In this document: positions 1 to 4,656 of the stretch, one piece after another
Position numbering within the stretch: the stretch's first letter is position 1
How the letters are laid out: each line of letters begins with the position of its first letter
Source of the DNA: an uncultured Pelagibacteraceae bacterium
GTDB taxonomy: Bacteria; Pseudomonadota; Alphaproteobacteria; Pelagibacterales; Pelagibacteraceae
Direction: 5' to 3'
Assembly: GCA_902543295.1 (NCBI GenBank)
Contig: CACBXW010000003.1
Span: 62,001-126,000 of the forward strand
DNA: 64,000 nt
Notes under the pieces: model-generated
The model's input: only the letters and a program-made list of their open reading frames with translations
Database searches by the model: none
What the model was told of the DNA's origin: nothing
Position numbers and translations under genes: made by a program

Positions 1-387
1 AGTGGATTACTTTCTCAAGGAAACGATATGGACAATGGAGACAACCCATACGAATGTGGCTTTGATAAATATATTAATATTGATAGTGATGTTGAATTTT
101 TAGGAAAAGAGCAATTAAAAAAAATAAAGTCTGAAGGAATTAAAAGAAAACTAATGGGCGTTAAAATTGATACTGATAAAATAAGCGTAACTGGTTCAAT
201 GAATTTAACAGATGAAAAAAATAATATAATCGGAGAACTACGATCAGGTTGTTACAATCCAACTTTTAAACAGGTAATTGGTATAGCTATGATAAAAAAA
301 CCATATTTTGAAGCAAAGCAAACATTCAAAATTGATATAAATGGTAATAGTTTTAACGGAACAGTTTGCGATTTACCTTTCATTTAG
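1..387 (+). CDS. dmdA: Dimethylsulfoniopropionate demethylase DmdA, C-terminal part (partial)
   Basis: The frame is open from the first base and ends at a TAG at 385-387, so this is the last 128 residues of a protein whose start lies outside the window. The segment resembles the C-terminal barrel of the GcvT/aminomethyltransferase family, with [13 protein letters not shown] near the left edge and a closing LRSGCYNP...GIAMI stretch. DmdA moves a methyl group from DMSP to tetrahydrofolate. I prefer DmdA to GcvT because of the NPYECG segment and the SAR11-like neighbourhood (asd, sdh). With two thirds of the protein missing, another GcvT-family demethylase remains possible. Confidence 0.72.
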
Positions 388-401: not shown

Positions 402-1412
402 ATGACTAATATAGCTATCATCGGTGCAACCGGTAATGTTGGAAGAAAGACACTAGAAGTCATAGAAAAAAAGGATATTAAATTTAATAACCTTTTTTTA
501 GTAGCTTCTTCTAATAGTGCTGGAAAAAAAATAAGTTTTAAGGGCAAAGATTATGAAGTCCATGATCTTGAAAAATACGATTTTTCAAATGCAAATATAA
601 CTTTTTTTGCAGCAGGTGGTAAAATTGCAGAACAATATGCAGAAAGTGCAGCAAAATTAACAACTGTAATTGATAATTCTAGTTTTTTTAGAATGGATCC
701 TGACGTTCCACTTATTGTACCTCAAGTGAATGCAGAAAAAATTAATGAAATGAAAAAAAATATTGTGGCAAATCCTAACTGCTCAACAGCTCAGTTAGTA
801 TTAGCTCTTAAACCATTACATGATTTATATAAAATAAAAAGAGTAATAGTTTCCACCTATCAATCTGTTTCTGGAGGCGGAAAAGCACCAATGGATGAAT
901 TGATTGAACAAACTAAATCTTATCTTGACGGAAATTCTGTTGAATCTAAAAATTTTACTAAACAAATAGCTTTCAATATAATTCCTCACATTGATGTTTT
1001 TTCGGATGATGGATACACAAAAGAAGAATTGAAAATGAGTAATGAAACAAAAAAAATACTGGACAATAATATAGAGCTAACAGCTACGTGCGTTAGAATT
1101 CCTGTTCTTGTATCACATTCAGAATCAGTAAATATAGAGTTTGAAAATCCTTATTCTCTAGAACAAATCAGAGAAGCATTAAATAATGCTGATGGTTGTA
1201 GCGTTATAGATAAAAGAGAAAATGGAGGATATAGTACACCAATAGAAGCAACTGGTTGTGATGAAACATTTATCTCAAGAATTAGAGATGATAAAACAAA
1301 AGAGAATTCAATTAATTTGTGGATCGTTTCAGATAACCTATTAAGAGGCGCCGCATTAAATTCCGTTGAAATTGCAGAAACAATAATGAAAGCAAATCAA
1401 AATGGAAAATAA
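402..1412 (+). CDS. asd: Aspartate-semialdehyde dehydrogenase
   Basis: Reduces aspartyl phosphate to aspartate semialdehyde with NADPH, the branch step to lysine/diaminopimelate, threonine and methionine. The N-terminal dinucleotide loop GATGNVG is at residues 8-14. The catalytic cysteine is C127 in NPNCSTAQ, and the later PHIDVF holds a conserved histidine region. At 336 residues it is the usual bacterial length. It starts 14 bases after the dmdA stop and overlaps sdhC by 11 bases. This cytosolic enzyme is not functionally tied to the TCA genes downstream. Confidence 0.97.
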   Translation: MTNIAIIGATGNVGRKTLEVIEKKDIKFNNLFLVASSNSAGKKISFKGKDYEVHDLEKYDFSNANITFFAAGGKIAEQYAESAAKLTTVIDNSSFFRMDPDVPLIVPQVNAEKINEMKKNIVANPNCSTAQLVLALKPLHDLYKIKRVIVSTYQSVSGGGKAPMDELIEQTKSYLDGNSVESKNFTKQIAFNIIPHIDVFSDDGYTKEELKMSNETKKILDNNIELTATCVRIPVLVSHSESVNIEFENPYSLEQIREALNNADGCSVIDKRENGGYSTPIEATGCDETFISRIRDDKTKENSINLWIVSDNLLRGAALNSVEIAETIMKANQNGK

Positions 1413-1782
1413 TCCTTTATCTCCTCATATTCAAATTTATAGATGGCATGTATCATCTTTAGTTTCAATATCTCATAGAATTACAGGAATAATAAATATA
1501 TTAGCAATAACTTTAATTTGTATCTTTTTTATTTTTTTTTCATTTAGCGAAGGAAGTCATGAATTAATAAAATTATTCCTCCAATCTTTTATTGGGAAAT
1601 TTTTCATCTTGGGTATTACATGGTCTTTTAGTTTTCAAATCTTAAGTGAGATAAGACATTTAATTATGGATTTTGGTTATGGATTTGATTTAAAAACCAC
1701 AAATATTACTGGCTTAATTGTAATATTTGGATCTTTTATATTAACCGTTTCAATTTATTTAATAGGACGAAATTTATTTTAA
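1402..1782 (+). CDS. sdhC: Succinate dehydrogenase cytochrome b556-type subunit SdhC
   Basis: Membrane anchor of complex II, 126 residues with three hydrophobic helices (about 30-48, 62-84 and 103-122). The family signatures are SPHIQIYRWH near the N-terminus, SISHRITG (22-29, quinone-site serine and arginine), and IRHLIMDFGYG (84-94). The usual heme ligand sits seven residues before the histidine of IRH. Here that position is Q79 (SFQILSEIRH), not histidine. It overlaps asd by 11 bases and touches sdhD in an ATG/TAATG junction. The family assignment is secure; loss of the heme ligand is inferred from alignment to remembered E. coli SdhC. Confidence 0.95.
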   Translation: MENNPLSPHIQIYRWHVSSLVSISHRITGIINILAITLICIFFIFFSFSEGSHELIKLFLQSFIGKFFILGITWSFSFQILSEIRHLIMDFGYGFDLKTTNITGLIVIFGSFILTVSIYLIGRNLF

Positions 1783-2111
1783 TGAGAGCAGTAACAAAAA
1801 AATGGGTATTTTTAAAAGTGAGTTCTCTCATATTAGTACCTTTGATGTTATGGTTTGCTTTAAATTTGGTTAGTATTTATGACAAAAGCTACTTAGAGAT
1901 ATTAACTTTTCTAACTTCTCAACCTTCAAAGTTTATATTTAGTCTTTTTCTTATTTTTGCTTACTTTTTCTCGGCATTAAGCATCAGCGAGGTTTTTGAA
2001 GACTATATTAAAGATGAAAAAATCAAAAATGCCGCAAACAAAGCTTTAAATTTTTTTGCTATAACAATTCCTTTAATTACAATATTTACAGTATTTAAAA
2101 TAACTATATGA
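1782..2111 (+). CDS. sdhD: Succinate dehydrogenase hydrophobic anchor subunit SdhD
   Basis: Second membrane anchor of complex II, 109 residues with three hydrophobic segments (about 10-31, 50-70 and 89-106). The EDYI motif (73-76) matches the DY tyrosine of the quinone site in the family. The entire protein contains no histidine. The position of the family heme b ligand, eleven residues before the aspartate of DY, is F63. It overlaps sdhA by 4 bases (ATGA). Identification rests on size, topology, the EDYI motif and its place between sdhC and sdhA. Confidence 0.93.
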
Positions 2112-3883
2112 AATCTTATAATATTATAGATCATGAATACGATGTCGTTGTCCTTGGCGCTGGAGGTTCTGGCCTAAGAGCTGCGGTTGGCTTAAGTGAA
2201 GCTGGATTAAAAACTGCATGCATTTCTAAAGTCTTTCCAACCAGAAGTCATACATCAGCTGCCCAAGGTGGAATTTCAGCAGCCCTTGGAAACATGGGAG
2301 AAGACGATTGGCGTTGGCATATGTACGATACTGTAAAAGGAGCAGATTGGTTAGGCGATCAAGATAGTATTGAATATTTGTGTAAGGAAGCTCCAAAAGC
2401 AGTACTAGAATTAGAAAAGTATGGTGTTCCTTTTAGTAGAACAGAAGATGGAAAAATTTATCAAAGACCATTTGGTGGAATGACAAAAAATTATGGAAAT
2501 GGAATTGTACAAAGAACTTGTGCTGCAGCAGACAGAACTGGTCATGCAATTCTCCATACATTATATGGTCAAGCACTTAAACATAATACAGAATTTTTTA
2601 TTGAATATTTTGCATTAGACTTAATTATGAAAGATGGACAGTGCAAAGGTTTAATTGCTTGGAATTTAAATGATGGAACAATTCATCGTTTTAGATCTCA
2701 CATAACAATTATAGCCACAGGGGGATATGGGAAGGTGTATTACTCAGCAACATCTGCACATACTTGTACTGGTGATGGTAATGCAATGGTATTAAGAGCT
2801 GGATTACCTCTTCAAGATATGGAGTTTGTACAATTTCACCCAACAGGAATATATGGACACGGAACACTTATTTCTGAAGGTGTAAGAGGTGAAGGTGGAT
2901 ATTTGGTAAACTCTAAAGGTGAAAGATTTATGGAGAGATATGCTCCCAACGCTAAAGATCTTGCTTCGAGAGATGTAGTTAGCAGATCAATGTCTATTGA
3001 AATCAATGAGGGAAGAGGTGTTGGTAAAGATCAAGACCATGTTCATTTATATTTAAGTCATTTAGATAAAAAAGTTATTGAAGATAGATTGCCAGGCATT
3101 ACTGAGGCAGCAAGATTATTTGCAAATGTAGATGTAACCAAAGAACCGATACCAGTTGTTCCAACAGTTCATTATAATATGGGTGGTATACCAACAAATT
3201 ATAAAGCTGAAGTTTTAACAGTAAATGGATCTCAAAAAACAGTCCCAGGTTTGATGGCGATTGGTGAGGCTGCGTGCGTATCTGTTCATGGAGCAAATAG
3301 ATTAGGTTCAAATTCACTTATTGACTTGGTTGTTTTTGGAAGAGCAGCAGCAAAGAGAGCAGCGGAATTGGTAAAACCTGGAACGCCTCACGAAGAAGTT
3401 AGTGAAAGCGAAACTGAAAAATGTCTAAATAGATTTGATAAACTAAGGTATGCAGAGGGAGATAATGGAACTGCTGAACTTAGACTGGCGATGCAAAAAA
3501 CAATGCAGTCTAAATGTGCTGTATTTAGAACTGAAAAGAATCTTAAAGAGGGTGTAGATGAGATCAGAAAAACATATGATGGCATGGAATCGATTTCTGT
3601 TAAAGATAAATCGTTGGTATTCAATACTGATTTAGTTGAGACTTTAGAATTTGATAATTTAATTAGACAAGCGATAACAACTGTAGATTCTGCATATCAC
3701 AGAAAAGAAAGCAGAGGAGCTCATGCTCGTGAAGATTATCCGAAAAGAAATGATGAAAAATTTATGAAACATACATTATCTTGGTGTGATGGAAAAAATA
3801 CTAAAATTGAATACAGAGATGTACATACTTCAACATTAACAAATGAAGTCCAATATTTTCCTCCACAAGAAAGAGTGTATTAA
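2108..3883 (+). CDS. sdhA: Succinate dehydrogenase flavoprotein subunit
   Basis: Oxidises succinate to fumarate on covalently bound FAD on the cytoplasmic face of complex II. The dinucleotide fold [13 protein letters not shown] is at residues 14-26 and the FAD-linking histidine is H48 in [10 protein letters not shown]. The catalytic-region motifs HPTGIYGHG and SEGVRGEGG follow, and the C-terminus ends with EYRDVHT...PPQERVY. At 591 residues it is full length. It overlaps sdhD by 4 bases, and its stop TAATG gives the sdhB start. Confidence 0.99.
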
Positions 3884-4656
3884 TGGTTCAATTAAATTTA
3901 CCACAAAACTCAAAAGTTAATAAAGGTAAATATTTTAAAGACAAAACTGGTTCAAAGAATATCAGAAAAGTAAATGTTTACAGATGGGATCCATCAACTG
4001 GAGAGAACCCAAGAATAGACACATATGAAGTAGACATGGATAATTGTCCATCTAAAGTTTTAGACATACTAAATAAAATTAAAAACGAAATTGATCCAAC
4101 ACTTGCATATAGAAGATCTTGTGCGCATGGAGTTTGTGGTTCTTGTGCAATGAATATGGGTGGAAAAAATGGTCTTGCATGTACTAAGCCACATGCAGAA
4201 ATTAAGGGAGATATAGATATATACCCTTTGCCTCACTTAAAAGTAAAAAAAGATTTAATAGGAGACTTAAGTGGATTATATAAACAATACCAATCCATTG
4301 AACCTTGGTTAAAAAATAATTCAAAAAGTGAAACAACAGAAATTCATCAATCTCCAGAAGATAGAGCTAAACTTGACGGAGCTTATGAATGTATAATGTG
4401 TGCTTGTTGTTCTACTTCATGTCCTAGTTATTGGTGGAATGGCGATAAGTATTTAGGTCCTGCAGTTTTATTACAAGCTTATAGATGGATAATGGATAGC
4501 AGAGACGAAGATAGAAAGGAAAGACTTCAAAAGGTTGCAGATGAACTTAAGCTTTATAGATGCCACACGATTTTGAACTGCACTAACGCATGTCCAAAAG
4601 GATTAAATCCAGCAAAAGCTATTGCTGAGATAAAGAAAATGCTTGCAACCACATAA
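3883..4656 (+). CDS. sdhB: Succinate dehydrogenase iron-sulfur subunit
   Basis: Carries electrons from FAD to ubiquinone through three clusters. The [2Fe-2S] ligands are C80, C85, C88 and C100. The [4Fe-4S]/[3Fe-4S] cysteines lie in [12 protein letters not shown] (170-181) and in C227...C233...C237. All expected ligands are present, so the iron-sulfur chain is intact although the heme site in SdhC/SdhD is not. It is 257 residues long and overlaps sdhA by one base. The gap to mmsA is 20 bases. Confidence 0.99.

Follow-up and report, generated by a model that had tools for sequence, protein, structure and literature searches.

Can a complex II of the type in which each membrane anchor supplies one axial ligand to heme b go on working when both ligands have gone? 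This question is raised by an sdhCDAB operon close to the start of the window, by which we mean the whole 64,000-nucleotide stretch of DNA analysed here (C3:62001-126000). The window comes from a 1.31 Mb genome (94% complete) of the Pelagibacteraceae, which we take to be SAR11; SAR11, or Pelagibacter, is very common and marine. The features on which the argument draws are given below, where i+4 is the place four residues past a ligand position.

1402..1782, plus strand: sdhC, large cytochrome b anchor subunit, 126 aa (TIGR02970, 108.2 bits, cut-off 52.3; Pfam Sdh_cyt, 90 bits)
1782..2111, plus strand: sdhD, small anchor subunit, 109 aa, zero histidines (TIGR02968, 48 bits, cut-off 41.8; Sdh_cyt, 27.4, cut-off 25.8)
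2108..3883, plus strand: sdhA, flavoprotein (FAD_binding_2 and Succ_DH_flav_C)
3883..4656, plus strand: sdhB, iron-sulfur subunit (Fer2_3 and Fer4_17; cluster cysteines, WW at 184-185, His228)
1636..1638, plus strand: SdhC Gln79 (CAA), at the position of the E. coli heme ligand His84
1648..1650, plus strand: SdhC Glu83, at i+4 from the ligand position; glycine in heme-binding homologues
1968..1970, plus strand: SdhD Phe63 (TTC), at the position of the E. coli heme ligand His71
1980..1982, plus strand: SdhD Ser67, at i+4 from the ligand position; glycine (E. coli G75) in heme-binding homologues
1657..1659, plus strand: SdhC His86, aligned with E. coli His91 of the distal propionate network (PMC3290573); in 142/142 rows of the selection set defined below
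1815..1817, plus strand: SdhD Lys12, aligned with E. coli Arg20, a distal propionate binder (PMC3290573)
1477..1479, plus strand: SdhC Arg26, aligned with E. coli Arg31, at the proximal propionate (PMC3290573)
1465..1467, plus strand: SdhC Ser22, invariant in 24 aligned SdhC sequences
2004..2006, plus strand: SdhD Tyr75, aligned with E. coli Tyr83; invariant in 24 aligned SdhD sequences

Both anchors score above the NCBIfam cut-offs for the type C SdhCDAB families, and they account for the only two Sdh_cyt matches in the search of this 94% complete genome. The quinone-site residues of type C are retained (SdhC Ser22 and Arg26, SdhD Tyr75), and the two places from which each anchor would contribute an axial heme b ligand hold Gln79 and Phe63. 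Ser22 is presumably the quinone-site serine, Tyr75 is likewise assumed to line that site, and Arg26, which is invariant in the alignment of 24 SdhC sequences, is taken to be a quinone-site residue in addition to its propionate position. We also take SdhA His48 to be the FAD-attachment motif and, by comparison with E. coli, the SdhB cysteines to be cluster ligands and its Trp and His residues to belong to the quinone site. Membership of type D finds no counterpart in these searches, SdhC reaching 15 bits against Fumarate_red_D (cut-off 25) and the Frd anchor families being absent among the SdhD matches at E up to 1; an Rfam search of the 64,000-nt window gave zero matches. A preliminary description of this DNA had placed Gln79 (CAA) at 1636-1638 and Phe63 (TTC) at 1968-1970 and had found SdhD devoid of histidine, all of which is exact, and our residue readings confirm its claim that both axial ligands are lost while catalytic and quinone-site residues are kept.

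The operon is tightly packed, with one-base overlaps between sdhC and sdhD (1782) and between sdhA and sdhB (3883) and a four-base overlap between sdhD and sdhA (2108-2111); an upstream ORF, presumably aspartate-semialdehyde-dehydrogenase-like, overlaps sdhC by 11 bases (1402-1412). Since neighbouring genes overlap in this way, translational coupling is suggested. A further ORF, at 28-387, resembles the C-terminal end of GcvT/DmdA-type proteins. The nearest named relatives are Pelagibacteraceae contigs, to which SdhC is up to 98% identical.

Everything that follows depends on the ligand positions, which the preliminary description had taken from E. coli (His84 and His71) and which both profile and structural alignments bear out. 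Among solved structures there are entries with the titles SdhC His84Met and SdhD His71Met. Because the SdhD sequence alone retrieved nothing among solved structures at E up to 1, a profile of 24 sequences was needed; it aligned without gaps to E. coli SdhD in 1NEK, with the ligand column on residue 71, and the 2WU5 chain, titled His71Met, departs from the 1NEK SdhD at precisely the letter of that column. The predicted SdhD model, although poor (pLDDT 62), aligns at residues 3..106 with 2WDQ_D 11..114 over 104 residues, and the resulting offset of 8 equates F63 with H71, S67 with G75, K12 with R20 and Y75 with Y83. For SdhC, the predicted residues 15..123 align with 7JZ2_C 20..129 over 109 residues (Z ~12), the offset to E. 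coli rising from 5 to 6 along the alignment; as the landmarks R26/R31 and H86/H91 fix it at 5 near helix II, we infer that Q79 corresponds to H84. Membrane anchors are poorly conserved, which would be in favour of an alignment or sequencing artefact; its probability is negligible, since the profile and structural alignments of SdhD are gapless and the same residues recur in more than a hundred genomes, and we regard it as excluded.

How far the substitutions extend was read from 287 distinct HMM-scored loci, with SdhD found in 285 (the exceptions being L095, at a contig end, and L229, whose sequence has diverged too far for the model) and cut in L191. Matches were obtained in 49/61 genomes of the window's genus, g1, in the genus search and in 128/147 genomes in the order search, of which g1 forms the larger part; among assemblies at least 90% complete the figures were 10/11 and 99/106, respectively. 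Giving the SdhC ligand, SdhD ligand, SdhC i+4 and SdhD i+4 residues in that order, the first 62 g1 rows, mostly best-scoring and hence biased to the window, comprise QFES 48, QFET 8, QYES 4, QFEN 1 and QHET 1. Forty further g1 rows, mostly lower-scoring (18 of the 19 unread genus-search rows and 22 from the order search), carry Gln/Phe in 22, Gln/Tyr in 13, Gln/His in 4 and His/Phe in 1, the last being G037 (L349), the genus's exception with SdhC His. Twelve matched g1 genomes stand outside this count, G041 (a fragment) and eleven from the order search. Taken together, the 102 g1 rows have SdhC Gln in 101 and His in 1, Glu83 in 102/102, and Phe, Tyr or His at SdhD position 63 in 80, 17 and 5, respectively; no row pairs His with His, and none has glycine at either i+4 place. 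Given the Tyr and His that appear in the 40 further rows, we rejected Phe63 as a near-universal mark of the genus. The best 80 of 385 rows from named Pelagibacteraceae, which are close to the window and may share organisms with our numbered genomes, have SdhC Gln in 80/80 and SdhD Phe in 79, one being cut off.

Outside the genus the ligand states differ among lineages. In the same family, where all 17 matched rows of other genera were read, g2 (2), g3 (2) and g4 (3) are HHGG in 7/7 rows, g5 has His/Phe in 7 and Gln/Phe in 2, and g6 has His/Phe in 1; all ten g5 and g6 rows carry Glu and Thr at the i+4 places. Among the 20 of 40 matched rows read from the order's other family, g8 is HHGG in 4 (one more is cut off), and the ligand pair is Tyr/His in 11 g7 rows and 3 g9 rows and Asn/His in 1 g10 row. 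These 15 rows (L195-L209) keep His and Gly in SdhD and replace the SdhC glycine by Cys, Ser or Asp; their anchors may still bind heme, and they could represent an independent or unfinished loss, or a heme ligated by His and Tyr. At the level of the class, 142 genomes were searched, 116 matched, 114 of them outside the window's order, and 108 were read (all except G207, G227, G262, G275, G277 and G339): 102/108 rows are HHGG, one is HHDS, one is HHDD, and the remaining four have SdhC Tyr. These four (L227, L229, L269 and L288, in genomes G311, G263, G286 and G336) are from small-genome class members and have Glu at SdhD i+4, by alignment in L227, L269 and L288 and by ORF reading in L229, whose SdhD ligand position is Val. 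Living Pelagibacterales thus preserve the mixed states His-Phe, Gln-His, Gln-Tyr and Gln-Phe.

A second signature, absent from the preliminary description, accompanies ligand loss in the genus, where the glycine four residues past each ligand is also replaced, by Glu83 in SdhC (102/102) and by Ser, Thr or Asn at position 67 of SdhD. In 115 His-His rows this glycine has a frequency of 98% in each column. Scored for both traits, 144 rows divide into 109 with ligands and glycines kept, 33 with both lost, 2 with the glycine alone lost and 0 with the ligand alone lost. The two glycine-only rows, L250 and L276, keep both histidines and have both i+4 glycines replaced, with Asp in SdhC, so that the ligands need not go when the glycines do; they are possible representatives of an early stage or of a tolerated heme site. 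Few independent events underlie this association, and the tree used to count them has weak support: in a FastTree tree of SdhA the ligand state changed at least six times, and in most pairings the independent pairs agreed in direction in 5/5 cases (p 0.0625), which is too few for significance. SdhD Glu70, considered as a second new carboxylate, was dropped as a diagnostic because relatives with both histidines (g2, g8) have it; SdhD Lys12 also occurs in g8 with both histidines (L190).

The order of these changes was placed on a tree of SdhA and SdhB (52 rows, quick method, trait genes left out), in which g1, g5 and g6 group together with SH-aLRT 100, their long stem measuring 0.21 and g2-g4 being their sister group. 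All 28 tree rows of the clade have Glu at SdhC i+4 and Thr, Ser or Asn at SdhD i+4, and the ligand residues vary inside it: g1 shows Gln/His, Gln/Tyr and Gln/Phe, and His/Phe is seen in g6 and most g5. What the clade has in common is thus the altered pocket and not the identity of the ligand residues. The pocket change therefore maps to the stem of the Pelagibacter clade. Both i+4 glycines would have been replaced on that stem, with the ligand residues changing further inside the clade, and we infer that the pocket probably changed first, in these qualified terms because Phe could date to the stem with a later return to His. The codons fit single steps, from His (CAT/CAC) by way of Tyr (TAT) to Phe (TTT/TTC) in SdhD and from His (CAT/CAC) to Gln (CAA/CAG) in SdhC. 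Once acquired, the new SdhC residues have been held: in a selection set of 142 Pelagibacter-genus and named Pelagibacteraceae rows (87 distinct SdhC), Gln79 is present in 142/142 (CAA 137, CAG 5), as is Glu83 despite codon variation (GAG 79, GAA 63), 33 of 118 SdhC columns being invariant, and the 40 further genus rows have Gln79 in 39/40 and Glu83 in 40/40. Gln79 and Glu83 are thus maintained by purifying selection and are not drifting freely; SdhD position 63 is less constrained.

What such a pocket might do in place of binding heme is indicated by the enzymes in which the site has been described. The E. coli distal propionate is held by SdhC His91, SdhB His207 and SdhD Arg20 and the proximal one by SdhD Gln78 and SdhC Arg31, with Arg20 and Arg31 in equivalent positions (PMC3290573). 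The E. coli heme lies off the direct electron path, and its complete loss cuts activity by ~50%, the heme-free variant still growing on succinate (PMC3290573). Cryo-EM and spectroscopy showed yeast complex II to be without heme; its ligand histidine has given way to Sdh4 Tyr108 and a glycine to Glu112, at 108+4, which pairs with Sdh3 Arg97 as a propionate of the heme would (PMC13066397). Like the E. coli SdhCDAB (1NEK, 2WDQ), the Pelagibacter enzyme has homologous subunits, fold and quinone-site residues, but Gln and Phe with Glu and Ser stand where E. coli has His84, His71 and SdhD Gly75. PDB entries 9QDL and 9QDM are, by their titles, the S. cerevisiae complex II. Pelagibacter shares with S. 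cerevisiae a type C anchor, a replaced ligand histidine, an i+4 Gly-to-Glu change and the quinone-site Arg and Tyr. However, yeast retains Sdh3 His156 and has its Glu in Sdh4, whereas Pelagibacter has lost both histidines and has its Glu in SdhC, a mirrored form of the combination, a lost axial histidine with Glu for the i+4 glycine, that marks the heme-free type C subgroup proposed for yeast. Nor does the SdhD Tyr with Glu four residues on recur, Phe63 and Ser67 being found here and none of the 17 Tyr63 rows among 102 having Glu67; it is L227, L229, L269 and L288 that have Glu at SdhD i+4, in the same place as yeast. Heme absence was measured in S. cerevisiae, whereas in Pelagibacter it is a prediction from sequence.

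We consider it very probable that this operon encodes a working type C succinate:quinone reductase without heme, in which side chains take the place of the cofactor. It is the one complex II that the search of this 94% complete genome recovered and, by ancestry, an ordinary SdhCDAB succinate:ubiquinone reductase, whose anchor would now have no heme b. Electrons would pass from succinate through FAD and three Fe-S clusters to ubiquinone; as this direct route bypasses the heme, catalysis should survive its loss. The structural task of heme, that of tying SdhC to SdhD, would pass to side chains, with Phe63 and Gln79 facing each other in the former His-Fe-His place and Glu83 standing in for a heme propionate and pairing with SdhD Lys12, at the E. 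coli Arg20 position. With the Glu at SdhC i+4, pseudo-symmetry makes Lys12 its expected partner, and the proposed Glu83-Lys12 pair would be the mirror image of yeast Glu112-Arg97; such a contact is beyond what single-chain models can display, and the SdhD model is weak. Comparison lends good support to the prediction that the reductase works without heme, because both pocket glycines are lost, the new SdhC residues are selected and yeast has converged on a similar arrangement.

Heme b could instead still be bound, with SdhC His25 or His86 as its ligand or through nothing more than packing. His25 is present in 141/142 rows and His86 in 142/142, SdhD His63 occurs in 5/102 genus rows, E. coli His30 lies ~3.5 Å from the heme ring (PMC3290573), and E. 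coli axial-ligand mutants can keep heme according to the title of a 2001 paper, for which reason sequence alone cannot prove heme absence. We nevertheless consider retained heme quite improbable: H25 and H86 are at least 90% conserved in the 24-sequence SdhC alignment, in which normal ligands are present too, so that no new ligand role need be assigned to them; SdhD has no histidine in 136/141 rows; and the pocket glycines are replaced, one of them by Glu in every genus row read. It is also possible, though unlikely, that the anchor is heme-free and the vacated site is filled by lipid or quinone and not by side chains. The wild-type complex II of Tetrahymena thermophila is a natural succinate dehydrogenase without heme b that has cardiolipin at the heme site, in a divergent anchor which its authors favour as type D (PMC10227065), and in yeast a phospholipid shifts deeper (PMC13066397). 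Against such filling, the Gly-to-Glu and Gly-to-Ser/Thr changes add bulk where heme would pack, favouring protein packing, although lipid filling is compatible with part of the side-chain replacement that we prefer. E. coli FrdABCD, of type D, is another member of the complex II family without heme (PMC3290573), and its anchors belong to other families than the SdhC and SdhD found here.

Why a predicted heme-free enzyme should have arisen is a separate matter. The preliminary description had interpreted the ligand loss as a saving of iron in an iron-poor ocean; its account of ligand loss with conserved catalytic and quinone-site residues stands, but the iron interpretation is not specifically supported, and we regard it as doubtful. 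Loss of both ligands does fall in the Pelagibacter genus group, which is marine by general knowledge. Yet four other class members also lost a ligand, apparently separately on a weakly supported tree, and all four have genomes of at most 2.0 Mb, compared with 29/104 of those keeping both (Fisher p 0.008, with sizes rounded and taxa not independent), so that genome reduction or a relaxed need correlates at least as well as iron. The iron saved would be one, against nine in the SdhB clusters. The cell, moreover, retains ferrochelatase and a Pfam-matched cytochrome b of the bc1 type, in which two histidine pairs, each with a spacing of 14, lie at 98/112 and 199/213 of the ORF; the adjoining ORF contains CASCH and looks like cytochrome c1. 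Heme is therefore made and used elsewhere in the cell.

No description of heme-ligand loss in SAR11 complex II was found in the open-licence literature among the titles and abstracts of the matches listed. The natural heme-free forms described come from one yeast and two protist lineages (PMC13066397), with yeast, Tetrahymena and Perkinsus as the cases (PMC13066397, PMC10227065), alongside an engineered heme-free E. coli complex II (PMC3290573). As the earlier reports found cover yeast and protists and none covers SAR11, the present case, with heme absence predicted, would add a bacterial variant to the known natural heme-free complex II. On balance, and by a modest degree, we favour the view that heme loss follows a repeatable route, taken independently by SAR11, the four class lineages and yeast, in which the i+4 glycine is replaced, mostly by a carboxylate mimicking the propionate, and the histidines then drift. 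The combination of ligand and i+4 position offers a sequence rule for finding heme-free complex II in genomes, and the annotation "cytochrome b556 subunit" can mislead about the cofactor. The function of heme b in complex II has long been an open question, and a bacterial clade with ligand-keeping relatives and mixed states makes it testable by enzyme swaps. If the prediction is true, the surface ocean would contain a heme-free respiratory complex II of very high abundance.
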